Below, in pieces: positions 51,615 to 63,726 of a stretch of 64,000 nt of DNA (positions are counted from its first letter, which is position 1; each line of letters starts with the position of its first letter). Source of the DNA: Spirochaetaceae bacterium 4572_59 (GTDB lineage: Bacteria > Spirochaetota > Spirochaetia > DSM-2461); the NCBI GenBank assembly GCA_002084805.1, contig NBMC01000001.1:62001-126000 (forward strand), read 5' to 3'. A program made the translations under genes and the position numbers. The notes beneath the pieces are model-generated. The model was not told the DNA's origin and did not search any database. It was given only the letters and a program-made list of their open reading frames with translations.

Positions 51615-52385
51615 ATGGGAAAAAATCAGCTGGAACGTATCTTAGGCATAGACCGCATTATCCGTGACCGAGGTGGTTGCACAAAAGAAGAGCTTCTGGT
51701 GCTTTTTGAAGTCAGCGGCAAATCGGTGGAGCGGGACTTTGCCTATATGCGTGACCGCCTCCATGCCCCTCTGGATTATAACCGTCACAATGAGCTCTAC
51801 ACTTACAGCGATAGCTCCTACTTTCTCCCTTCCGTCAGTCTCTCCGAGGGTGAGGTTATGGCCCTGGCTCTTTCAAGTGAAATCTTAAACCACTTTAATT
51901 ATGTAGACGATTTTAATGAACTGCGGGACTCCCTGGGGCGGATGACCTCCTATCTGCTGGCTTTCAGGGGTAGCTGGTATATCGTTGCACGCGATCCGAG
52001 TCGGGGGAATATAAGAACCTATGCTCTGGGCCGTATGCAAAAGCCTTATAAAACTAATACCACCTTTACCATCCCCGCGGATTTTCGTCTGGAGGATTAT
52101 GTAGATCCTGAGTGGGGTATTTACAGCCGGAGGGAGAAGTATGATTTTGTTCTGACTTTCACTCCTCGGGTGGCGGATCTTATCCGTGAGAAGATCTGGC
52201 ACAGGGATCAGAAGCTGGAAGAGCTGGCGGATGGTTCGGTGGTTTTGAGCTTTTCTTCGGGGCAGATTGAGACGATCGGTCAGTGGGTTCTGGGCTGGGG
52301 GGCGGATGTGCATGTGGCCTCTCCTGTGGACTTGATTGAGAGGATTAAGGAGACGGCTTCTCGGCTGGGAAATATGTATGGTTGA
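51615..52385 (+). CDS. WYL-domain transcriptional regulator, short form
   Basis: 256 residues, against about 310-330 for most. N-terminal HTH (GIDRIIRDRGGCTKEELLVLFEVSGKSVERDFAYMRDRL in outline). The WYL core is recognised by YLLAFRGSWYIVARDPSRGNIRTYALGRM landmarks, and the WCX C-terminus by VLTFTPRVADLIREKIWHRDQ. The part between, normally 60 or more residues, is nearly missing after FNELRDSLGRMTS. Either an in-frame deletion or a natural short form. WYL regulators often sit beside defence systems, as here. Confidence 0.8.
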   Translation: MGKNQLERILGIDRIIRDRGGCTKEELLVLFEVSGKSVERDFAYMRDRLHAPLDYNRHNELYTYSDSSYFLPSVSLSEGEVMALALSSEILNHFNYVDDFNELRDSLGRMTSYLLAFRGSWYIVARDPSRGNIRTYALGRMQKPYKTNTTFTIPADFRLEDYVDPEWGIYSRREKYDFVLTFTPRVADLIREKIWHRDQKLEELADGSVVLSFSSGQIETIGQWVLGWGADVHVASPVDLIERIKETASRLGNMYG

Positions 52386-52405
52386 ACTCTCTTAATTAAG
52401 ATTTT

Positions 52406-52498
52406 GGGCGTCTCCCTGGCTGCGCCAGGGGCAGGCTCTTCAGGGGTTTCGTCCCTGCGGCACCGCCGTTGGCGCCCTTGCGATCCTTGACGCTAGGG
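52406..52498. repeat. GC-rich palindromic element
   Basis: About 93 bases of strongly GC-rich sequence in an AT-rich spacer. Internal hairpins: CCCTGGC / GCCAGGG (7 bp, loop TGC, 52414-52430), CAGGG / CCCTG (52441-52457), and outer GGGCG (52406) against CGCCC (52473). It resembles repeat elements I have seen between genes in treponeme-like genomes, but a copy count cannot be made here. No gene in 52386-52703. Confidence 0.45.
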
Positions 52499-52703
52499 TG
52501 TGTGGGTGATCAAATTGTTATAGGAATTGTGCTTAATTTATTAGGAGTTTGGTTTGAGTGAAATCAATGGTTTGGCATAAATGCAGCTAAAAGCAATACC
52601 GCGCCAAAAATGTTTGAAATATGATAGTATTGGCTGTGAAAACATAAAATCCACGTGCCCTAAGAAGCACAGCATCCGTACCGGGCTAAGAGAAGAGGAA
52701 TAA

Positions 52704-54725
52704 ATGATAACACAAGAAACACTAAATAATTTAACAAACGAAATCTGGAAGTCAGCAGAACGGCTTCGGGGTAAATTTAAAGCATATGAATACCAAAGCG
52801 TTATTCTTCCAATCATCGTGATCCGGCGTATTGAATGTGTCCTTATTGAAATGCGAGAAGCAACAAGAAGTGAAATCCAATCTAAACGCCCTGATATTGC
52901 AGCTAAGAATTTGGAGGAAATGGTAAAAAAGATGGAATTATCCACATACCATTTTTTCAATTCAACAAACTGGTCTCTGGATGCCATCTATCAGGAAGAT
53001 CACACCATCATGGAAAAAAACTTCCGGGATTATATAAATGGATTCTCCGAAAACATTCAGGAAATTATTGACCATTTTAATTACCGAGCTGTTATTGGAC
53101 AAATGAAAAAGAATGGCCGACTTGCACCAATCATCAATCAATATAGAAATCAAGATTTAAACCCCAATAGAATCAGTAATATAGAAATGGGTTATATCTA
53201 TGAAGAATTGTTACGACGCTTTTCTGAGCAAAGTGGAGAAGAAGCCGGAGAACACTTTACTCCCAGAGAAGTAATCCGTTTGATGGTTGAATTACTTGAT
53301 ATTGCTGTGAAGGATAAACATGTTTCCATATATGACCCGGCCTGTGGAACTGGCGGAATGCTATCTGTCGCTAAAGCTCATGTGTTGGACAGAGTAAAGG
53401 ATGAAAATCAGAAATCAAAGATGGAAACCTTGATTACTCTTCACGGCCATGAAATACAACCACAAAACTATGCAATTTGCAAAGCAGATATGCTTATTAA
53501 AAATGATGCCAATGCCTATATTTATTACGGGAATTCTCTAGTACCCCATGATCCCGAGAGTGATGATCCCGGTGATCAGCTTGCCGGTAATTCCGATAAA
53601 TTTGACTATATGCTGTCAAATCCTCCTTTCGGAGTAACCTGGGGCGGAGAAGACGGGTATGAGAAAGAAGCCAGAAAGTTGGAAAAATCACGGTATAAAG
53701 CAGGGATGCCACGAACAAATGACGGAGCATTGCTTTTTCTCCAGACTATTATTTCAAAAATGAAACAGGTAAATGAAGGCGGTAGCAAAGTTGCCATTAT
53801 TTTTAATGGTTCTCCCTTAAGTAATGGTGACTGCGGATCAGGAGAAAGTGAGATTCGCCGCTGGATTCTGGAAAACGACTTGTTGGATGCCATTGTTATG
53901 CTGCCGGACCAGTTATTTTACAATACAGGTATATTCACCTACATTTGGCTGTTATCTAACAAGAAACTTAGTGAGCATAAAGAGAACGTAATGATTATCG
54001 ATGCCCGCAATCAATTTGAAAAGGAACCGAAGTCCTTTGGACACAAGCGAAACAGGATTACAGATGAGCATAGATCCTGGATAGAAAAACAGTACAAGCA
54101 GGGTTGGAAAAACGGGTATGAGAATGAAAATGTAAAAATATTCAGCAATAAGGATTTTGCATTTCATAAAGTAGCTGTAACATTCTGGCAGACCGATGAA
54201 AAGGACCAGCCCATGATGGTTACAGAAGGTTTTGATGTTCAGTTGTCAAATTCGAATGTGAAGAAAAAATTCGACCTGTATGGTGATCTGGATTTTTTAG
54301 TTTCCCTTGTTTCTCCCGAGGATGAAAAGAAGGAATATGCGTTAAAGATAAATGCTGATTCAAAATCCTTTGAAGTACAGCTTACAGCTTTAGCTCTAAC
54401 AGATTTTCCGGTTTTGAAGAAAGAGAAAACTACCGCTAAGATCTTTAAAGCTTTAAAAACATGGGAGCTTTCAGCGAAATACACCCACAAGCATTACATT
54501 CAGGATGATGAATATATACCCAATGGTGAAGATATAGAAGCTTTTCTGGAAAGGGAGATTGCCAAACCTATCATCAAATGGGAAGACCGTCCCCAGCTAG
54601 GTTATGAAATACTGCCTAATAAATATTTCTATAAATATGAGCCTCCAAAGCCTGCAGATGAAATACTAAATGAGTTCTGGAAGCTGGAAAAAGAAGCGGA
54701 AGAGATTCTCAAGGGGCTGAAGTGA
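52704..54725 (+). CDS. hsdM: Type I restriction-modification DNA methyltransferase, HsdM
   Basis: 673 residues. N-terminal HsdM helical domain, then the adenine N6-methylase motifs: SAM-binding YDPACGTGGML (DPACGTGG at 211-218) and catalytic NPPFG (306-310), with FTPREVIRLMV before them. C-terminal coiled region (KLEKEAEEILKG). Somewhat longer than usual. GTG of hsdS overlaps its stop. With HsdS it methylates host sites; with HsdR added it restricts foreign DNA. Confidence 0.95.
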   Translation: MITQETLNNLTNEIWKSAERLRGKFKAYEYQSVILPIIVIRRIECVLIEMREATRSEIQSKRPDIAAKNLEEMVKKMELSTYHFFNSTNWSLDAIYQEDHTIMEKNFRDYINGFSENIQEIIDHFNYRAVIGQMKKNGRLAPIINQYRNQDLNPNRISNIEMGYIYEELLRRFSEQSGEEAGEHFTPREVIRLMVELLDIAVKDKHVSIYDPACGTGGMLSVAKAHVLDRVKDENQKSKMETLITLHGHEIQPQNYAICKADMLIKNDANAYIYYGNSLVPHDPESDDPGDQLAGNSDKFDYMLSNPPFGVTWGGEDGYEKEARKLEKSRYKAGMPRTNDGALLFLQTIISKMKQVNEGGSKVAIIFNGSPLSNGDCGSGESEIRRWILENDLLDAIVMLPDQLFYNTGIFTYIWLLSNKKLSEHKENVMIIDARNQFEKEPKSFGHKRNRITDEHRSWIEKQYKQGWKNGYENENVKIFSNKDFAFHKVAVTFWQTDEKDQPMMVTEGFDVQLSNSNVKKKFDLYGDLDFLVSLVSPEDEKKEYALKINADSKSFEVQLTALALTDFPVLKKEKTTAKIFKALKTWELSAKYTHKHYIQDDEYIPNGEDIEAFLEREIAKPIIKWEDRPQLGYEILPNKYFYKYEPPKPADEILNEFWKLEKEAEEILKGLK

Positions 54726-56071
54726 TAAATGTTGATCTGAAAGATTCTGGTATAGAATGGATTGGAAAGATTCCGAAAGATTGGGGTGTTAGAACTCTGA
54801 AACGCACTGCATTTATTCATGGGCGTATCGGTTGGCAAGGTTTGACTTCAGAAGAATATTTAGATGAAGGGAATTATTATTTAGTAACGGGTACAGAATT
54901 TGAAGATGGAAAAGTTAACTGGAATGATTGTCATTATGTAGAAAGGGATAGGTTCCAACAAGATATTAAAATTCAATTAAAGTCTGACGATGTTTTGATA
55001 ACAAAAGATGGAACAATCGGTAAAATCGCTTTAATAGATTCCTTACCTAAACCAGCTACACTAAATAGTGGGGTTTTTGTTACTCGTGTAAGGAATAAAG
55101 AGTTTATCCCAATTTTTTTTTATTGGATATTGATTTCAGACTTATTTCCTCAGTTTATTGAATACTCAAAAGTTGGAACTACTATTAATCATTTATATCA
55201 AAAAACGTTTGAATGTTTTATTTACCCTCTCCCTTCGCTTTACGAACAAAAACTTATTTCCGCCTACCTTGATAAAATTACCGCCATCATCGATAAAGCA
55301 GTTTCCGTGAAAAAGAAACAGCTGGAAAAGTTGGAAGAGTTAAAGAAATCCATTATCTACAAAGCTGTTACAAAAGGCCTGGATGATTCGGTGGAAATGA
55401 AAGATTCAAGTATTGAATGGATTGGTGAAATACCAAAGGGTTGGGAAATAAAAAAACTAAAATATTATATTGAGATCAAAGATGGTACTCATGATACGCC
55501 AACATATGAGGAAACTTCTGTAGGGAATTATCCCTTTGTAACTTCCAAAGATATTACAAATAATGAAATAGATTTTTCTGCTGTAAAATATATTAACTCT
55601 GATTATCATGATAATTATTATAAAAGGTCTAATGTTATGAAAGATGATATTATCATGCCTATGATTGGTACTATTGGCAACTCTGCTATAGTTAAGAAAG
55701 AAGAACCATTTTCTATAAAGAATGTGGCCTTATTTAAAACGTCTAAAAATGAATTTACTAGTACGAAGTATCTTTTTTATTTTTTAGAAAGTGAATTAAA
55801 TAAGACACAATTTGAGATAATTTCCAAGGGGGGTGTTCAGGAATTTGTATCTCTTACTATTCTTCGAAATCTATATTTTTTAAAACCTAAAATAAAAGAA
55901 CAAAAACTCATCGTTGCCTATCTCGATCAAAAAACCTCCGAAATCGACTCTGTTTTTGAAAAAATAACCCTCCAAATAGAAAAACTGAAGGACTACAAAA
56001 AATCCCTAATCCACGAATGTGTTACCGGTAAACGTCGTATAACAGAAACTGAGATTCCGGAGGCTGTGTAA
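54722..56071 (+). CDS. hsdS: Type I restriction-modification specificity subunit HsdS
   Basis: 449 residues from a GTG overlapping the hsdM stop by four bases. Two target-recognition domains, each opened by the same phrase: DSGIEWIGKIPKDW (about 8-21) and DSSIEWIGEIPKGW (about 228-241). Each is followed by a conserved coiled-coil spacer (AYLDKITAIIDKAVS...KLEELKKS; AYLDQKTSEIDSV...KLKDYKKS). The TRDs are AT-rich and differ from each other, so the DNA target is bipartite. It overlaps the next ATG by one base. Confidence 0.93.
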   Translation: MINVDLKDSGIEWIGKIPKDWGVRTLKRTAFIHGRIGWQGLTSEEYLDEGNYYLVTGTEFEDGKVNWNDCHYVERDRFQQDIKIQLKSDDVLITKDGTIGKIALIDSLPKPATLNSGVFVTRVRNKEFIPIFFYWILISDLFPQFIEYSKVGTTINHLYQKTFECFIYPLPSLYEQKLISAYLDKITAIIDKAVSVKKKQLEKLEELKKSIIYKAVTKGLDDSVEMKDSSIEWIGEIPKGWEIKKLKYYIEIKDGTHDTPTYEETSVGNYPFVTSKDITNNEIDFSAVKYINSDYHDNYYKRSNVMKDDIIMPMIGTIGNSAIVKKEEPFSIKNVALFKTSKNEFTSTKYLFYFLESELNKTQFEIISKGGVQEFVSLTILRNLYFLKPKIKEQKLIVAYLDQKTSEIDSVFEKITLQIEKLKDYKKSLIHECVTGKRRITETEIPEAV

Positions 56072-57096
56072 TGGCAAAAGACTTGACCGTATCTGGAGTA
56101 GAACGGCAGAACATTCTCAATAATCCCTATGCTCTGGAAGAAATCCGAAGCAATATAGGAATTCACACTATCAGCTATAAGGGAGACGCTGTCCTGACGA
56201 AAGAGCAGGTTGCTGATTTCTTTGAAATAAGCCCCAGAACCATTGATAATTATCTTGCCCAAAACGAAGAGGAACTTAAGAAAAACGGTTACGAAGTTTT
56301 ACGAGGTAAATCCTTGAAGAATTTAAAATTAGCCATATCAGAGTCGGATGTCGACGAAATGTATTTCGTTAACATCAAAAAGGCTCCCAGCCTGGGTATC
56401 TTTGATTTCCGCTCTTTTTTAGACCTGGGAATGCTGATTACAGAGAGCGAGAAAGCTAAAATTCTACGGAAGATGATACTGGATATTGTCATTGATACAA
56501 TAAACAAGCAAACCGGCGGCTCAACTAAATATATAAATCAGCGGGATGAAGATTTTATAATTTCCTATTTTCAAGAGGAGAACTACCGAAGGGAATTCAC
56601 TGATTCTTTGAAAAACTACCTGGATATGGGAAAATTCAAATATCCTCTATATACCGACAAAATATATGTAAGCATTTTTAAAGAAAATTCTCGAGGATAC
56701 AGAAAAATATTAAAACTCCATGAGAAAGATAAGGTTCGGAACACTTTCTATTCAGAAATTCTTGATTTAATAGCCTCATATGAATACGGCTTTGCCAAAA
56801 CCCTTGAGGAAGCATATAAACAGAAAGGCTCTATGCTTTCTAGTCTCGAAGCTGATGCTTTATTTTCCGAGTTTGAAAAACAACCCCATTGGAAACCACT
56901 TGTAGAACGGGCTAGGAATAAAATGGCCAGCAGAGATTTGGCTTTTCGCGATGCTTTGCATATGCAGCTTAAAGAGTATATCTCACCGGTACAGGCTGAT
57001 GAATTTGAACGGTTCATCGGCCAGAAAAGCAAGGAGCTGGCAGATCGTATGGAAGAAGCAAAGGATGTTTTTAAACGCCTAAAGGAGAGGGATTGA
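56071..57096 (+). CDS. RhuM-like DNA-binding protein, putative Doc antitoxin
   Basis: 341 residues. N-terminal helix-turn-helix: LTKEQVADFFEISPRTIDNYL. A middle segment (GIFDFRSFLDLGMLITESEKAKILRKMILDI in outline) resembles the RhuM/ORF6N type found in type I RM loci. The C-terminus is helical. It precedes a Doc toxin gene by a four-base overlap, so it may be the cognate antitoxin, or a modulator of the RM system. The family name is by style; I am not certain. Confidence 0.5.
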   Translation: MAKDLTVSGVERQNILNNPYALEEIRSNIGIHTISYKGDAVLTKEQVADFFEISPRTIDNYLAQNEEELKKNGYEVLRGKSLKNLKLAISESDVDEMYFVNIKKAPSLGIFDFRSFLDLGMLITESEKAKILRKMILDIVIDTINKQTGGSTKYINQRDEDFIISYFQEENYRREFTDSLKNYLDMGKFKYPLYTDKIYVSIFKENSRGYRKILKLHEKDKVRNTFYSEILDLIASYEYGFAKTLEEAYKQKGSMLSSLEADALFSEFEKQPHWKPLVERARNKMASRDLAFRDALHMQLKEYISPVQADEFERFIGQKSKELADRMEEAKDVFKRLKERD

Positions 57097-57536
57097 GCCA
57101 TACTGTTTATATCACCATTGAAAACGCCCTCGAAGTATATCATAAAACTATAGCTGTCAGCGGCGGCGGTTCTGACGGAGTTATGGACTTAGGTAGGCTG
57201 GAAAGCGTATTAACTCATATTCAAAATGATCTTTATTACCCTGAGTTTGTGGATAAATTAACTCACCTTTTTTTCTGTGCGAATAAATTTCATTGTTTTG
57301 AAGATGGAAATAAACGAATTGCAATATCCCTCGGCGCTCAGTTTTTGCTTCTTAATGGATATGTTTTCATAGTTTCACGCTTTATCCGTGAAATGGAAAA
57401 TATAAGTTATCATCTGGCAGCAGGAAAAATTGAGAAGGATCTACTACGGGATATTATACAGGCTGTACTTGATGACAATATGGATAATGAAGAAATAAAA
57501 CTTAGTATATTTGAAGCAATTAGCAGGGAAGAATAA
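57093..57536 (+). CDS. Doc/Fic-family death-on-curing toxin
   Basis: 147 residues from a TTG overlapping the previous stop. The Fic/Doc motif is intact: HCFEDGNKR (67-75), i.e. H-x-F-x-D-G-N-K-R, preceded by LTHLFFCANKF and followed by FLLLNGY. In P1 Doc this motif phosphorylates EF-Tu. Inserted in an hsd operon between hsdS and hsdR; its stop overlaps the hsdR ATG by one base, so it is co-expressed with the RM system. Confidence 0.87.
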   Translation: MSHTVYITIENALEVYHKTIAVSGGGSDGVMDLGRLESVLTHIQNDLYYPEFVDKLTHLFFCANKFHCFEDGNKRIAISLGAQFLLLNGYVFIVSRFIREMENISYHLAAGKIEKDLLRDIIQAVLDDNMDNEEIKLSIFEAISREE

Positions 57537-60445
57537 TGGGAACAGAACTGGATTTTCAGAGGCACTTTGAGAATGCACTATCTAATATTCATGGATATAA
57601 AAAATATACAAATTCTAATCTTACAGATAAAGAATGGTATCTAATTGAAGATGATTTAATCGCATATTTAAAGAAGACACAGCTCTATCGATATGCCGAG
57701 CTAGAGCATAATTATGGAACTGATACTAATGATGAAATCATTAGGGCTATAAAGGAAGAAACAAAACATAAACCTTTGTGGATTATTTTCCGTAACGGAT
57801 TAAACGTTCGAGGAATCCATTTTAAGCTTTTTGACCGTATTCCTCGATCACAGGAATCATCAGAAATTCCTGAAAACAATACAATTGCATTTATCCCTCA
57901 GCTTGAGATAGATGAAGAGAAACGTCCTGATATTGTTCTTTTTCTTAATGGCTTGCCTATAATCGTTATAGAATTGAAACATGAGAAAAATCAAAATGTA
58001 CATGATGCTGTTACTCAATTTGTTGGTCGAAATCATACAGATAAGATCTTTAATTTACCATTTCTCTATATTGCTTCTGATACCAGTGAAGTTAAAGCAG
58101 CAACCAATCCCTCCCGTGAAGAAAATTTCCGGTGGTATAATTCCGGTCTCGTTAATCAACCTGAAAACCAGAATGAGTATTCCGTTGAATATCTGTACCG
58201 TTATGTACTAAGCAGGGATTCTATACTGGAAATGCTTAGCTTTTTCCTGATTTATGTTCCTAAAACTTCTGCATCAGAAGGCGTGCCGGGGAAAAACGCT
58301 TTTACTATTTTCCCGCGTTACCACCAATCACGTGTGGTTACCTCCTTATCGCAGAATCTGATAAGTTTTTTTGTTGAAAATGGAAATTGTGGTAAGCGGT
58401 ATTTGATCAATCATTCTGCAGGTTCTGGTAAAACTCTGACCATTTCCTGGTTAGCTGATCGCTTAAACAGTCTTTATGTTCCTGGAACAAGTAAAAAAAT
58501 AATAGATATAGTATTTATCCTCACAGATAGAAAAGTTTTGGATAAAAATGTTCGTGATGAATTGGATAACTTCACTCATTTAAATAACAAAATGAAATTC
58601 GCTAAAAAGGCAGATTATTTACCTCGTTTTATTAAAAATCGAGAACAAATCATTGTTACAACTCAGCAAAAGATTAACTGGATTATTGAAAAACTGAAAA
58701 ATGATCCAGAGCTAAAATCCTTAAGAATCGCTTTATTAATCGATGAGGCTCACAGATCTCAAGAAGGTAAATCTGGGACTAATATCCGTAATTTATTTAA
58801 AAAAGAGGATACTATTGCTGTAGAGGAACTCTCCGATGACGAGGATACTATAAACGATGAATTACAGAAGGCTGAATTTCCCAATTTGTTGACAGTGGCG
58901 TTTACAGCAACTCCGAGTCAATCAACAGTACAGTTGTTTGGCGCACCTTTTGATATATATTCAGAGTCAGAAGCAATTCAGGAAGGTTATATCATTGATG
59001 TTGCCTCAAGTATAATCTCATATAAAACTCTTTATAATCTGGAAAGCCGGATTATCCCATTCAGTGATGAGAAGACTTTTCCTCCAGGAATTATCAGTAA
59101 AATGTTGAAAAACATCGCTTATCAGGATAAAGGACTTATTCAATATAAAGCTGAACTAATGCTCCGAATATTTGAAGAGAATATTTCAGATTTGATAAAC
59201 TGTAAAGCGAAAGCTATGATAGTAACAGCATCGAGAATTGCAGGCTTAGAGTACTATAAAGTTTTAAAAGAAAAATTAAAAGAAAAAAGAAAAGTAGATT
59301 CTGAAGAGTATGATTATCATGTTCTCTATGCATTTTCTGATTTTACTAATCCAGAAACAGGAAAAGACATTACAGAACAACAAGTTAATGGTCTAAGTAA
59401 TGGCGAGCTCATTGAGGATTTATTTGATACAGATAAATATCGTCTTCTTATCGTTGCTAATAAATTTCAAACAGGCTTTGATCAACCTTTATTAGCGGGA
59501 ATGTTTCTTGATAAACCCGTTAGTGATCGGAATGCGGTCCAGACAGTATCACGTCTTAATCGTTGCCATGAGAATAAAGACAGAGTTGTAGTTGTAGATT
59601 TCACTAATAATGCGGATGAGATAATTAATGCCTTCAAAAAATATCGCGATGGAACGCCCTTTGAGCCTATTGAGCCGGATATCAAAAAGCTTGAGAGCCT
59701 ATATAATGAAATTCTCTCGTGGAATATCTATAACCTATCTACTGCAAAAGAAACAGTTGAAATTATTAGCGCAGGTTCAGATACAAATCTACAGACTCAA
59801 GCGAATAGATTAAGAATCCTGTTTAAAGACAAAACAAATGATATTGAGCAACAAAAAGAATATATCAGACTTTTATCAAAATATAGTTCAACCTGCATTT
59901 TTATGAGTAATTTCTTCGAAATAAAAGAGGATTTTATGATATTTGGGATTTTTACAGAATTTATCGTGCCGCAGATGATAAAAGAAGGTTCTGACTCGGA
60001 GTTAAAAAGAATAATGCAAGGAATCTATGTAACCAAAGCTGCGGTCTCTTATGTTGGAGAAAAGAAACTGGAAGGTAAATATACGAAAAAAAATGGGAAT
60101 GCTGGTACTGGAAATAGAAAGCCCCAAAAAGTAACTGTTAAAGAAGTTCTCGATAGCATTCGTGAAAAATATAAAATAACCGAAGAGGAAGCACTTGTAA
60201 TTAAAGATGTTTGTGAAGAAAAAATGGATGATGAATCGATAAGTAGCATTATCACGATCCATATTGATGATATGGATTACCTGGATAATGTCTACAAAAA
60301 GGAGATTAGAAAATCTATCGAGAATAGTTATACCAAAAGATCATTGTATGAGTGTCTTACTGATGAAAAATATATAGATCCGGGCTCTATATTTGACATC
60401 ATGTCACATACTGTTCTACATGTCACGATTGATAAATGTGCTTAG
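57536..60445 (+). CDS. hsdR: Type I restriction endonuclease subunit HsdR
   Basis: 969 residues. N-terminal PD-(D/E)xK nuclease: RPDIVLFLNGLPIIVIELKHEK with D132 and E146-x-K148. Helicase: Walker A AGSGKT (296-301), DEAH box LLIDEAHRSQ (404-407), VAFTATPSQ, and motif VI QTVSRLNRCH. C-terminal part binds the methylase. It translocates DNA and cuts at a distance. Ends the five-gene operon; the attC-like site follows 68 bases after its stop. Confidence 0.95.
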   Translation: MGTELDFQRHFENALSNIHGYKKYTNSNLTDKEWYLIEDDLIAYLKKTQLYRYAELEHNYGTDTNDEIIRAIKEETKHKPLWIIFRNGLNVRGIHFKLFDRIPRSQESSEIPENNTIAFIPQLEIDEEKRPDIVLFLNGLPIIVIELKHEKNQNVHDAVTQFVGRNHTDKIFNLPFLYIASDTSEVKAATNPSREENFRWYNSGLVNQPENQNEYSVEYLYRYVLSRDSILEMLSFFLIYVPKTSASEGVPGKNAFTIFPRYHQSRVVTSLSQNLISFFVENGNCGKRYLINHSAGSGKTLTISWLADRLNSLYVPGTSKKIIDIVFILTDRKVLDKNVRDELDNFTHLNNKMKFAKKADYLPRFIKNREQIIVTTQQKINWIIEKLKNDPELKSLRIALLIDEAHRSQEGKSGTNIRNLFKKEDTIAVEELSDDEDTINDELQKAEFPNLLTVAFTATPSQSTVQLFGAPFDIYSESEAIQEGYIIDVASSIISYKTLYNLESRIIPFSDEKTFPPGIISKMLKNIAYQDKGLIQYKAELMLRIFEENISDLINCKAKAMIVTASRIAGLEYYKVLKEKLKEKRKVDSEEYDYHVLYAFSDFTNPETGKDITEQQVNGLSNGELIEDLFDTDKYRLLIVANKFQTGFDQPLLAGMFLDKPVSDRNAVQTVSRLNRCHENKDRVVVVDFTNNADEIINAFKKYRDGTPFEPIEPDIKKLESLYNEILSWNIYNLSTAKETVEIISAGSDTNLQTQANRLRILFKDKTNDIEQQKEYIRLLSKYSSTCIFMSNFFEIKEDFMIFGIFTEFIVPQMIKEGSDSELKRIMQGIYVTKAAVSYVGEKKLEGKYTKKNGNAGTGNRKPQKVTVKEVLDSIREKYKITEEEALVIKDVCEEKMDDESISSIITIHIDDMDYLDNVYKKEIRKSIENSYTKRSLYECLTDEKYIDPGSIFDIMSHTVLHVTIDKCA

Positions 60446-60513
60446 TATTAACAATTAATAGGTAGAAACCGGCTCTCCCTTTCCTGTGCTCTGGCGCTTG
60501 GAAACGGTACTGC

Positions 60514-60612
60514 CTATAACAAGGAATATGAGGTTCCGCCTTCGGCTTTACCCAAATTGCCTCTGGTCGCGAGCGCCCGGCGATAAGTTCTCATATTCCT
60601 GGAACGTTATGA
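60514..60612. repeat. attC-like integron recombination site
   Basis: About 99 bases. Left end CTATAACAAGGAATATGAG, right end CTCATATTCCT then GGAACGTTATGA. AGGAATATGAG (60521-60531) is an exact inverted copy of CTCATATTCCT (60590-60600). The outer AAC pairs with the GTT of GTTATGA, as in an attC R''/R' pair, and the size is in the attC range. The core has small hairpins (CCGCCTTCGG). No integrase gene is in the window. Confidence 0.55.
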
Positions 60613-60775
60613 AATAATAATTCAGGGTCCAGAATGCGGATTTGACCTTATACCGCTAGTACCGGTCTGAACACAGACTTAATTTCTTCTCTTTCCAAAT
60701 AAACCCTCACTATATGTCCCTCCGTCTCTGTAACGTAGAAATGATATAAAACTTAAACAATCTGCAGGAACATAA

Positions 60776-61384
60776 ATGGACAAAACAATAAGCCTTAAGA
60801 TCAACGACCAGGACTACAATATAGATTATTCCGGATTAAATAGTCGGGATGGGGCTATCCGGTATTTTGAACCGGCACTCAAACGGGAAATAACCGCCCA
60901 TCTTTCCCATATCCCATACTTTGTAGCAGGCCGCGTTCATCTTCGGGATGGAGTCATTACAGAAGAAGCCATCCTAAAATGCCGTGCTCTGATTCCTCAT
61001 ACCACTCGGTTCTATAAAGCCATGGCCGGGATAGATTCTGAGAAGTTCTACACTACTTTCTGGAACAGATTCGGCAGGAAGAAACTGAGTCGATATTCCT
61101 CCTTGCAGACTCATCTTAATGAAGTTTCCGGAATCAGAAAGAAATTGAAGAGATCCTTAAAAAAGGAATCCCTATTGGATAATAGGGAGAAATCACTTCT
61201 TTTCGGCCTATTGAAGAAGGGGGAGAAAGATATCCAGGATCAAATTCTCCGACAGCGTATGGTGATTGATGACTCTCTGAGGGATGATTTTCTGGAACGG
61301 ACAGGGATCGATTTTATAGGCAATTTAGAGATTGAGGTACTCTCTGATTACTTTCAGATTTTCAGGGAGGTCCCGATAATTTAA
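60776..61384 (+). CDS. Hypothetical protein between the RM and Wadjet systems
   Basis: 202 residues, no signal or membrane segment. N-terminal beta strand pair (ISLKINDQDYNIDYSGLN), then a mixed domain with AGRVHLRDGVITEEAILKC and a basic middle (RKKLKRSLKKESL). C-terminal GIDFIGNLEIEVLSDYF. I do not recognise it. It stands alone with its own ribosome site (CAGGA). Its location between two defence systems makes a defence or regulatory role possible, not shown. Confidence 0.7.
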   Translation: MDKTISLKINDQDYNIDYSGLNSRDGAIRYFEPALKREITAHLSHIPYFVAGRVHLRDGVITEEAILKCRALIPHTTRFYKAMAGIDSEKFYTTFWNRFGRKKLSRYSSLQTHLNEVSGIRKKLKRSLKKESLLDNREKSLLFGLLKKGEKDIQDQILRQRMVIDDSLRDDFLERTGIDFIGNLEIEVLSDYFQIFREVPII

Positions 61385-61733
61385 GAACCCCGTCCTTCCT
61401 CAAAAGAAGGTGGAAAGTATGGGCCGTATCAAAAAGAAGCTTGTCTGGAATATGCTGCAAAAGGGCAGAGCAGATCAAACCATCCCAGCCCTCACCAATA
61501 TTGAAACTAAGGGGTATTGCCGCGGGAATGCTGCCTCTCTGTATTCTGCTCCCTTCAGGGAAGATCCGGGAATCCTGACAAGTGAAAAAACAGGATTTCT
61601 TTCAGGAAGAAACGATCTCTTTAGCTAAGGTCATAATGGAACTTGACTTGTGATTTCTATCTAATCTTCTTGTCCTAGCATAAGTCCTCCTTATATACTG
61701 ATACTACCGGTATTCCGGACGGAGACAGAATAC
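61385..61733 (+). other. Spacer with a doubtful small frame and the Wadjet promoter
   Basis: No solid gene. A 72-codon frame (61410-61628; MGRIKKKLVWNML... then TEKTGFLSGRNDLFS) is present but its composition is not convincing and I see no homology signal. The Wadjet promoter lies at the right end. Confidence 0.5.
61670..61699 (+). promoter_or_regulatory. Candidate promoter of the Wadjet operon
   Basis: TTGTCC (61670-61675), 18-base spacer, TATACT (61694-61699), 34 bases before the jetA ATG, which has a GGAGA site. Confidence 0.5.
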
Positions 61734-63152
61734 ATGCCCCTGGATTATTTTGAACTGAAGAGCCCCCTTATCGCAGGATTCCTTGACCGTGTCTTTTCAG
61801 ATGTGGCGGTCAGGCAGATTCGCGAATCAGAGATTATCATGCGACTGGAAGACTACCTTTTCTCCCTGCGGGAATTGGAATCGGAGGACCGTTTTCCCCG
61901 CAGTGCGGCAGATTATCTGAACGAATGGAGCCGGAACGACAAGGGCTGGCTGCGAAAATTCTATCCTCCGGGGATCGACGAACCCCATTTTGATCTGACC
62001 CCGGCCAGTGAAAAATCTCTTCAGTGGATGCGTGAGCTTTTCGAGCGTTCCTTTATCGGAACAGAAAGCCGCCTCTATTCCAGCATCGAGCTGCTGAAGC
62101 AGATTGTCCATGGGATGGAGGAGGATGAGGATGCCAGAATCGCCCGTCTGGAGGAAGAGAAGGTCAGGATCGACCGTGAGATCAAGAGGGTCCGGGAGGG
62201 CGATGTCCCTCTGCTGAGTGACCGCGAAGTAAGAGAGCGATTTCTTCAGTTTGAACGGCAGTCCGGTGAACTATTAAGCGATTTCAGAGCGGTGGAGCAG
62301 AACTTCCGTGATCTAGACCGTGAAACCCGTGAAAAAATCGCTTCATGGACCGGGGAGAAGAGTGGTCTCCTTAAAACCCTGCTGGGGGAACGGGACGCCA
62401 TCTCCGGATCTGACGAAGGTCAGAGCTTTTCAGCCTTCTGGGATTTCTTGATGTCCTCCGCCAGTCAGGAGGAACTTTCTGATCTACTGGATACTGTTTG
62501 CTCCCTGGAGCCGGTAAAAGGGTTGGAGGATTTTTCCCGTTACAGGCGCATACACTTTGACTGGATGCGTGCGGGAGAGCAGACCCAGCGCACCGTAGCC
62601 CGGCTGAGTCAACAGCTGCGCCGTTTTCTGGACGATAAAAGCTTTTATGAGAACCGGAGGATCAGCCGGCTCCTGGACAGTATTGAACAACAGGCTCTCA
62701 AAATCCGGGGAGACACTCCCGAGGGGATCTTTATGGAGTTGGGCGGATTTAAGCCGGATGTTCGGATGCCCATGGAGCACCCTCTGTTTTCTCCACCGCT
62801 TACACAGGATCTGCAGGCCTCCATGGATGAGATCGATCTGAGTGATCTGGATGACAAAGCATTATTCAAGCAGACCTTTGTGGATAAGAAGAGACTGAAC
62901 GGGAATATCAGACGGTTTTTGCAGAAAGTGGATCAGGCCACACTGGGACAGATTCTGCAGGAGCATCCCCTGGAGGAAGGCTTGGCCGAACTCCTTACCT
63001 ATCTGCATATTGCAGAGGAACAGCTATCTGCCTTGGTGGATGATAAAGAGAAGGAACTTGTAGTGTGGACCGATCATGTCGGCATTCAAAGGCAGGCAAA
63101 GATACCCAGAATACTATTTAACAGGACAGGCTATGAACGAAACAAAGGGTGA
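61734..63152 (+). CDS. jetA: Wadjet defence protein JetA (DUF3375, kleisin-like)
   Basis: 472 residues, the DUF3375 family: SPLIAGFLDRVF opening, NEWSRNDKGWLRKFYPPGIDEPHFDLTPASEKSLQWMRE landmarks, a long charged coiled coil (about 125-230), and a DQATLGQILQEHPLEEGLAELLTYLHIAE end. JetA is the MukF/kleisin-like part of a condensin-type complex that binds and cuts circular plasmid DNA. It overlaps jetB by 20 bases. Confidence 0.93.
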   Translation: MPLDYFELKSPLIAGFLDRVFSDVAVRQIRESEIIMRLEDYLFSLRELESEDRFPRSAADYLNEWSRNDKGWLRKFYPPGIDEPHFDLTPASEKSLQWMRELFERSFIGTESRLYSSIELLKQIVHGMEEDEDARIARLEEEKVRIDREIKRVREGDVPLLSDREVRERFLQFERQSGELLSDFRAVEQNFRDLDRETREKIASWTGEKSGLLKTLLGERDAISGSDEGQSFSAFWDFLMSSASQEELSDLLDTVCSLEPVKGLEDFSRYRRIHFDWMRAGEQTQRTVARLSQQLRRFLDDKSFYENRRISRLLDSIEQQALKIRGDTPEGIFMELGGFKPDVRMPMEHPLFSPPLTQDLQASMDEIDLSDLDDKALFKQTFVDKKRLNGNIRRFLQKVDQATLGQILQEHPLEEGLAELLTYLHIAEEQLSALVDDKEKELVVWTDHVGIQRQAKIPRILFNRTGYERNKG

Positions 63153-63726
63153 AAGCGAATTTTCAATACTGCTGGTTTCACTGATGAAATCGGTGATGAA
63201 CCGGGAGGATAATCCCTCCCGCTGGCAGCAGCTCCTCAACAGTCAGAGCGAACTGCGGGAATATCTTTCCCGTATGGCTTTGGATCTTGTCATCGACGAA
63301 GAGGAGGGATTTGCCTATCTGAGGAACCTGGATCTGCAGGAGGAGTCCGTCCCCCGCTTGATCAGTCGCAGGCCTCTCTCCTATCCCGTCAGTCTGCTTC
63401 TCGCTCTCTTGAGGAGAAAAATGTCCGAGCATGATGCGGGCAGTGGCGAAGTGAGGATTATTCTGGATAAACAGGATGTTCTGGATATGCTGGCGGTCTA
63501 TTTTCCTGTGGGGATGAACGAGGTTCAATTTGTACGCAGGGCCGAGGGATATATGAAAAGGGCTGCTGAAATGGGATTTATCCGTTATCTGGGAGAGGAT
63601 AAGCAAAAACTGGAGATAAAGAGGATCCTCAAAGCATTTGTGGACGCCCAGTGGCTAAATGAACTTGATCTGAAACTTAATGAGTATAAGAGGCATGGCG
63701 GACTGGATGAGGGGGATGAGCTATGA
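63133..63726 (+). CDS. jetB: Wadjet defence protein JetB (DUF4194)
   Basis: 197 residues from the ATG at 63133 (an in-frame start at 63076 is inside jetA). The DUF4194 pattern, a MukE-like winged-helix protein: [33 protein letters not shown] in outline, [48 protein letters not shown]. It bridges JetA and the ATPase. Stop overlaps the jetC ATG by four bases. Confidence 0.92.

Follow-up and report, generated by a model that had tools for sequence, protein, structure and literature searches.

The attC-like site that follows hsdR in the stretch of DNA analysed here (the window: 64,000 nucleotides of Spirochaetaceae bacterium 4572_59) probably closes a lone, very large type I restriction-modification cassette (52518-60606), one that would belong to a branch of integrons with a tyrosine recombinase lacking the I2 insert as its integrase. 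Comparison of sequences points to this reading through the conserved structure of the site, cassette starts that match their own R' box, the link between such sites and I2-less recombinases together with the insertion points beside them, and the lack of any integrase found in this genome. We found no account of such an I2-less integron branch in print in the open-licence literature.

The site itself is made up of the following parts, given with strand and, in brackets, the basis for each:

60512..60614, +, attC of the R1/R2 family, whole model match (copies, covariation, covariance-model match)
60513..60520, +, R' box CCTATAAC (sequence and alignment)
60522..60532, +, left arm of the 11-bp stem, without a bulge, AGGAATATGAG (sequence and alignment)
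60538..60546, +, side hairpin GCCTTCGGC within the left half (alignment, consensus fold)
60590..60600, +, right arm of the 11-bp stem, CTCATATTCCT, with the 5-nt spacer GGAAC after it (sequence and alignment)
60606..60614, +, R'' box GTTATGAAA, including GTTATGA at 60606-60612 (sequence, cassette-start rule)
after G60606, +, predicted exchange point and cassette end (analogy with the G^TT of attC)

The exact 11-bp inverted repeat formed by AGGAATATGAG and CTCATATTCCT and enclosed by CCTATAAC and GTTATGA had been noticed, with its AAC and GTT ends, in the first-pass annotation, and its coordinates as well as the GTTATGA were confirmed. The further claim that the site follows the attC plan stood in part: it is attC-like and has a conserved paired structure, but it is not of the canonical kind, having an unbulged stem and a 1/5-nt spacer. 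The AAC ... GTT triplets in complementary R boxes are present, and the outer letters of the strict RYYYAAC/GTTRRRY pattern are matched in part. Folded alone, the window copy is mildly better than its shuffles (z -1.84 for the bottom strand, -0.97 for the top strand), and the bottom strand of a circle made from the predicted cassette folds at -20.1 kcal/mol vs -16.1 for the linear site. A search of 59000-62000 gave no match to any known Rfam family up to E 1, which ruled out a known Rfam element as the identity of the site. By eye, the stretch directly 5' of the attC (60460-60512) resembles those preceding the attC sites at L010, L019, L024 and L026 (GGAAACGGTACTGCC / GGTGCGGTACAGCC); it is perhaps one more conserved element at cassette ends.

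Judged by its copies, the window site is a member of a structurally conserved attC family and more than a chance repeat. A DNA search found a second copy in its own genome at 83% identity and copies in 10 of 41 genomes, its own counted. From 11 copies found by BLAST, the window site among them, we built covariance model R1, which has a single match in the window (107.9 bits); a second model, R2, was built partly from sites beside I2-less recombinase loci and is therefore not independent, whereas R1 contains only BLAST copies of the window site. Matches to sites of this family, hereafter R-type sites, occur in 39 of the 148 genomes of the class; none was found by DNA similarity in plasmid and phage collections. 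Seventeen copies share a common plan, namely TAAC, one base, an 11-bp unbulged stem, a left side hairpin, an inner stem AAATTGCC/GGCAACTT, the second arm of the stem, roughly five bases and GTTA. Across these 17 sequences the letters of the 11-bp stem vary widely and its pairing in the consensus fold is kept: 95.7% of the cells in this helix (helix 2) are paired, with two-sided change in 8 of its 11 pairs, and the AAC/GTT columns are paired in nearly all sequences. Over the whole structure, 56 cells carry two-sided changes vs 21.1 +/- 4.0 in shuffled alignments, and at most 12 do so when partners are slid by 1-3 columns. A left-strand bulge is absent from 66 of 79 R-type sites, the window site falling in that class, while all 12 canonical sites have at least two bulges; most R-type sites also have the unequal 1/5-nt spacer.

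In relatives, R-type sites form arrays of tandem copies with small genes between them, and these arrays supply a rule for finding where a cassette begins: in attC arrays, each cassette opens with a sequence complementary to the R' box at its far end. For 46 cassettes shorter than 2.5 kb, the start agrees with the cassette's own R' box at a mean of 7.83 of 9 positions vs 5.68 for the boxes of others, and none of 5000 shuffles was as good; the array of G029 is a poorer case, several of its starts matching their own R' box badly. A cassette array in G012 is interrupted (L146:4660-6795), by eye, by an apparent IS3-type transposase pair and a reverse-transcriptase-like protein.

The G029 array leads to the enzyme, ending as it does beside a 271-aa tyrosine recombinase. 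This protein scores 196.6 bits against the integron integrase model (TIGR02249, cut-off 265) and 192.7 against XerA, under both cut-offs, and its structural model ties between IntI4 (2a3v: Z 21.8, rmsd 11.0, 265 aligned) and XerA (5hxy: Z 21.0, rmsd 13.2, 257 aligned). Relatives of it are present in 26 of the 148 genomes, and canonical IntI exceeds the cut-off in 41 of the 148, including all five other genomes of the same genus. R1 matches accompany 11 of 31 I2-less loci vs 0 of 38 IntI loci, with the same result from R2; since L137, a recombinase located beside an R-type array, served as a seed for the I2-less set, the corresponding figure with L137 set aside is 10 of 30. Adding a G008 locus, which is one of the 31 and has its sites in the next stretch, and two of six further loci brings the count to 14 of 37 vs 0 of 38 (Fisher p 1e-5). 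Restricting the count to loci flanked by 3 kb or more on each side gives 7 of 9 vs 0 of 14. The remaining 23 of the 37 I2-less loci are without an R-type site, L202 and L213 among them despite having more than 3 kb on both sides, and many of the site-less loci are cut off by a contig border on the side where an array would lie. All 14 linked loci have sites oriented away from the recombinase, in a divergent layout (L137, L191, L192, L196, L205, L216, L264) or on the same strand (G008 three times, L207, L211, L219, L263). Canonical IntI as the neighbour of R-type sites was rejected on its 0 of 38 contexts.

The recombinases linked to sites also differ in kind from IntI. Across the 41 columns of the IntI-specific insert I2, the 12 site-linked recombinases fill 0-3, while all 38 IntI fill 41; the catalytic motifs of tyrosine recombinases are kept in 11 of the 12. 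The exception, L205 in G059, is without the LGH and tyrosine motifs and is therefore probably a broken gene, to judge from its residues. In a tree in which the Xer and phage rows are long branches, IntI form one clade (100/100) and the I2-less enzymes fall into several lineages, not one clade; the sister group of IntI (98/86) is one of these lineages and contains five site-linked enzymes. A separate observation concerns IntI proteins of this class (L140 of G003, L139 of G012): about 92-96 extra N-terminal residues precede the part that matches TIGR02249, and several of these IntI show no R-type array.

The place at which cassettes would enter can be seen next to several of the I2-less genes. 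At five divergent loci, the first cassette's own start (8-9/9) lies 74-102 bp from the recombinase gene, and in three of these five it follows a common TTGTATAATGCGG stretch containing TATAAT. Two loci of G008 encode near-identical recombinases, and the regions that follow share every base over 170 bp as far as CCTAACC^GTTAT and diverge beyond it; by this comparison, we read them as one insertion point that received a different first cassette in each case. At the third locus of G008, the recombinase is followed by about 117 bp, G^TTATGTGC (9/9), a 4.9-kb first cassette and an R-type attC. This methylase/helicase cassette, which encodes two methylases (MmeI-like and Eco57I-type) and a T5orf172-ResIII protein, is the nearest parallel to the cargo in the window, and by DNA the locus is the nearest relative of the window site. 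The insertion point is weak or was not found at L207, L211, L216, L219, L263 and L264.

The leading alternative is that R-type attC sites are moved by canonical IntI acting in trans, with some other role for the I2-less recombinases that lie near other copies. We consider this rather unlikely, given that R-type sites are found in none of the IntI contexts and that the insertion points adjoin I2-less genes; furthermore, I2 is described in PMC7790495 as reading extrahelical bases, and R-type sites mostly have none. The chance that it nevertheless has is due to the wide presence of IntI over the cut-off in the class and in every other genome of the genus, and to IntI-only genomes being somewhat richer in R-type sites, with 7 of 25 holding them vs 11 of 92 genomes with neither recombinase (p 0.06), in a hand tally that counted G028, G045, G050, G107 and G136 as I2-less from incomplete matches and G034 and G047 as IntI-less though they hold broken IntI pieces. 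At the level of genomes, both kinds of recombinase are enriched with R-type sites, and co-occurrence alone does not separate the two.

Returning to an R-type cassette served by an I2-less enzyme, the boundaries predicted in the window and the genes inside and around them are these:

51615..52385, +, WYL/WCX regulator, left flank, common to genus relatives G002-G005
52517..52525, +, cassette start (predicted), G^TTATAGGA; 8/9 of its bases complement the R' box of the attC at 60512-60614
52518..60606, +, predicted cassette of 8,089 bp (start match and own-start rule)
52704..54725, +, hsdM (HsdM_N, N6_Mtase)
54722..56071, +, hsdS (two Methylase_S stretches)
56071..57096, +, 341-aa protein, PADLOC candidate PDC-M59A
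57093..57536, +, Fic/Doc-type protein, PADLOC candidate PDC-M59B
57536..60445, +, hsdR
61734-63152 and 63076-63726, +, JetA and JetB, Wadjet-type, right neighbours

With hsdM, hsdS and hsdR present together, the genes make up a type I restriction-modification system, and the five-gene operon before the site, with its complete restriction-modification system, is most likely the cassette of that site. The start expected for it is GTTATAGGC, and 52517-52525 reads GTTATAGGA, an 8/9 agreement and the sole match with at most one difference in the 16.5 kb between 44001 and 60512; it is this match that gives the predicted cassette of 52518-60606. It falls in the 318-bp gap separating the WYL gene from hsdM, where about 0.025 chance 8/9 matches are expected from a plus-strand density of 5 in 64 kb. 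The suggestion made from the sequence at first sight, that the preceding genes might have been brought in as a cassette, thus gains from a matching start just upstream of hsdM. The remark that an 8-kb cassette would be unusual was a fair one: among 58 distances from one site to the next, just two exceed it, at 8.7 and 11.3 kb, and the start matches of both are poor; for spacings with a 9/9 start the maximum is 4.4 kb, to which the 4.9-kb first cassette in G008 can be added.

These sizes bear on another possibility, namely that the attC is real but the restriction operon came by another route and lies upstream of it by chance, the true cassette being shorter or lost. A length of 8 kb, far above the usual site spacing, speaks for this, as do the lack of an empty site in the relatives searched and the fact that the nearest relative of HsdR (69% identity, L088) is without a site. 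Indeed, no R-type site was found at L088 or at the other 22 loci with HsdR relatives, so such an operon is not always a cassette. We think such a coincidence quite unlikely, however, as the only 8/9 start in 16.5 kb is in the gap before hsdM, and the same rule finds the starts of a second cassette in this genome and of the restriction-type cassette in G008. That the site is a dispersed hairpin repeat (a MITE, a terminator or a REP-like element) with no part in cassette movement is very improbable, since the scatter of copies through several genomes and the mild folding of the window copy on its own are set against tandem arrays with small genes, cassette-start pairing and junctions beside recombinases.

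To the left of the proposed cassette, similarity between the window and both G003 and G005 continues beyond the WYL gene and across a GC-rich repeat. It stops at about 52493, which is 24 bases before the predicted junction, and other genes come next. This GC-rich element (GGGCGTCTCCCTGGC...CGATCCTTGACGC, 52405-52500 in the window) lies after the WYL gene in the same place in G003 and G005; a second, incomplete copy opens L131, and the window's genome has the element once. The WYL regulator is shorter in the window (256 aa) than in genus relatives (about 319-334 aa), the middle of the WYL domain being missing. Among the genus relatives that share the WYL flank the downstream genes differ and none holds an empty site, and the 202-aa gene on the right flank has no relatives elsewhere, the only one of the 148 genomes with a match being its own. 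Relatives yielded an empty site for neither the window cassette nor the second cassette. In G003, the place after the WYL gene is taken by a GmrSD-type restriction gene (L131:2673-4495), with a GTTATACGG start before it that agrees at 8/9 with the end box and an attC-like hairpin (GGTATAAC...GCGTTAAAC) after it which is not an R-type match. This suggests that defence cassettes may have landed repeatedly at the position following the WYL gene. Because jetA and jetB of a Wadjet-type system adjoin the cassette, the region has the look of a defence island governed by a WYL regulator.

Elsewhere in the genome, R1 finds two further sites and R2 repeats the result, so that the search for other copies proposed at the outset was answered both here and, as described above, in relatives. 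The first, on C78, has two small genes of toxin-antitoxin look upstream in a 637-bp cassette, and the start of this second cassette, GTTAAGTGA (8/9), is the only match in 2.3 kb upstream; its left-flank gene has relatives, in which the right flank does not follow. The other, on C15, is weak, with a degenerate R' box and no cassette start found. The genome thus appears to carry isolated cassettes at scattered places, with no array. The first-pass annotation had suggested a lone attC with no integrase nearby, and this extends to the whole genome, where nothing exceeds the TIGR02249 cut-off for a canonical integron integrase and no relative of the I2-less recombinase appears at 1e-35. As the assembly is 93.5% complete and in 93 contigs, loss of an integrase and a gap in the assembly look the same.

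How the cassette might have arrived can be pictured from these elements. It may once have been a circle whose site folded, on one strand, into a hairpin; an I2-less integrase would then have inserted it into a G^TT site on the downstream side of the WYL regulator. That integrase may have acted from elsewhere, been lost later or sit in an assembly gap, which would leave the cassette stranded today. In place of extrahelical bases, the side hairpin and the 1/5-nt spacer, with its unequal lengths, would determine the choice of strand. The pairing between cassette starts and their own R' boxes suggests that an R-type site works as a folded strand, because double-stranded exchange would not need such pairing. 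An I2-less enzyme and sites without extrahelical bases would fit one another as a matched pair. The weakest points of this account are the missing empty site, the 8/9 start and, for the window's genome, the prospect of canonical IntI acting in trans.

Among known systems, the chromosomal integrons of Treponema, with canonical IntI and attC, likewise have a spirochaete host and cassettes read away from the integrase, and attC remnants without intI are reported for T. phagedenis in PMC3607928. A canonical spirochaete array is found in our own set in G048 (L221), where attCs of about 63 bases with two extrahelical bases lie beside an IntI with I2; the R family has neither. Also among the nearest systems is the taxon-specific attC class that Ghaly et al. 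2021 modelled for Spirochaetes (PMC8352920). The window corresponds to a CALIN, or lone attC in the sense of IntegronFinder, in having an attC without an integrase found in the genome, but R-type arrays in relatives do have a neighbouring recombinase, one without the IntI-specific domain. The I2-less fold is shared with Xer and XerA, whereas the I2-less recombinases considered here adjoin attC arrays and insertion points. Finally, the integration of CTXphi by XerCD, as presented in PMC4792948, also combines a hairpin site without extrahelical bases with I2-less recombinases, but CTXphi borrows the host Xer at dif, while here the recombinases come with cassette arrays of their own.

These comparisons bear on the origin of integrons. 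In PMC7790495 and PMC4792948, I2 is described as docking the extrahelical bases and as needed for cassette capture, and how attC sites and the I2 domain arose together is treated there as unsettled. We see about an even chance that I2-less tyrosine recombinases recombine folded attC hairpins without extrahelical bases in a second, perhaps older, integron mode. Since one I2-less clade is sister to all canonical IntI, it may preserve the state before I2 was gained, and it would move whole multi-gene defence operons as single cassettes. A natural I2-less integrase with attC sites lacking extrahelical bases would offer a living comparison for the origin of I2 and its sites, and one that is directly testable. 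The integron search described in PMC9668308 requires the IntI-specific domain, and scans that require an I2 profile would count such integrons as integrase-less clusters. If the boundaries proposed here hold, a single cassette can consist of a whole type I restriction-modification operon.
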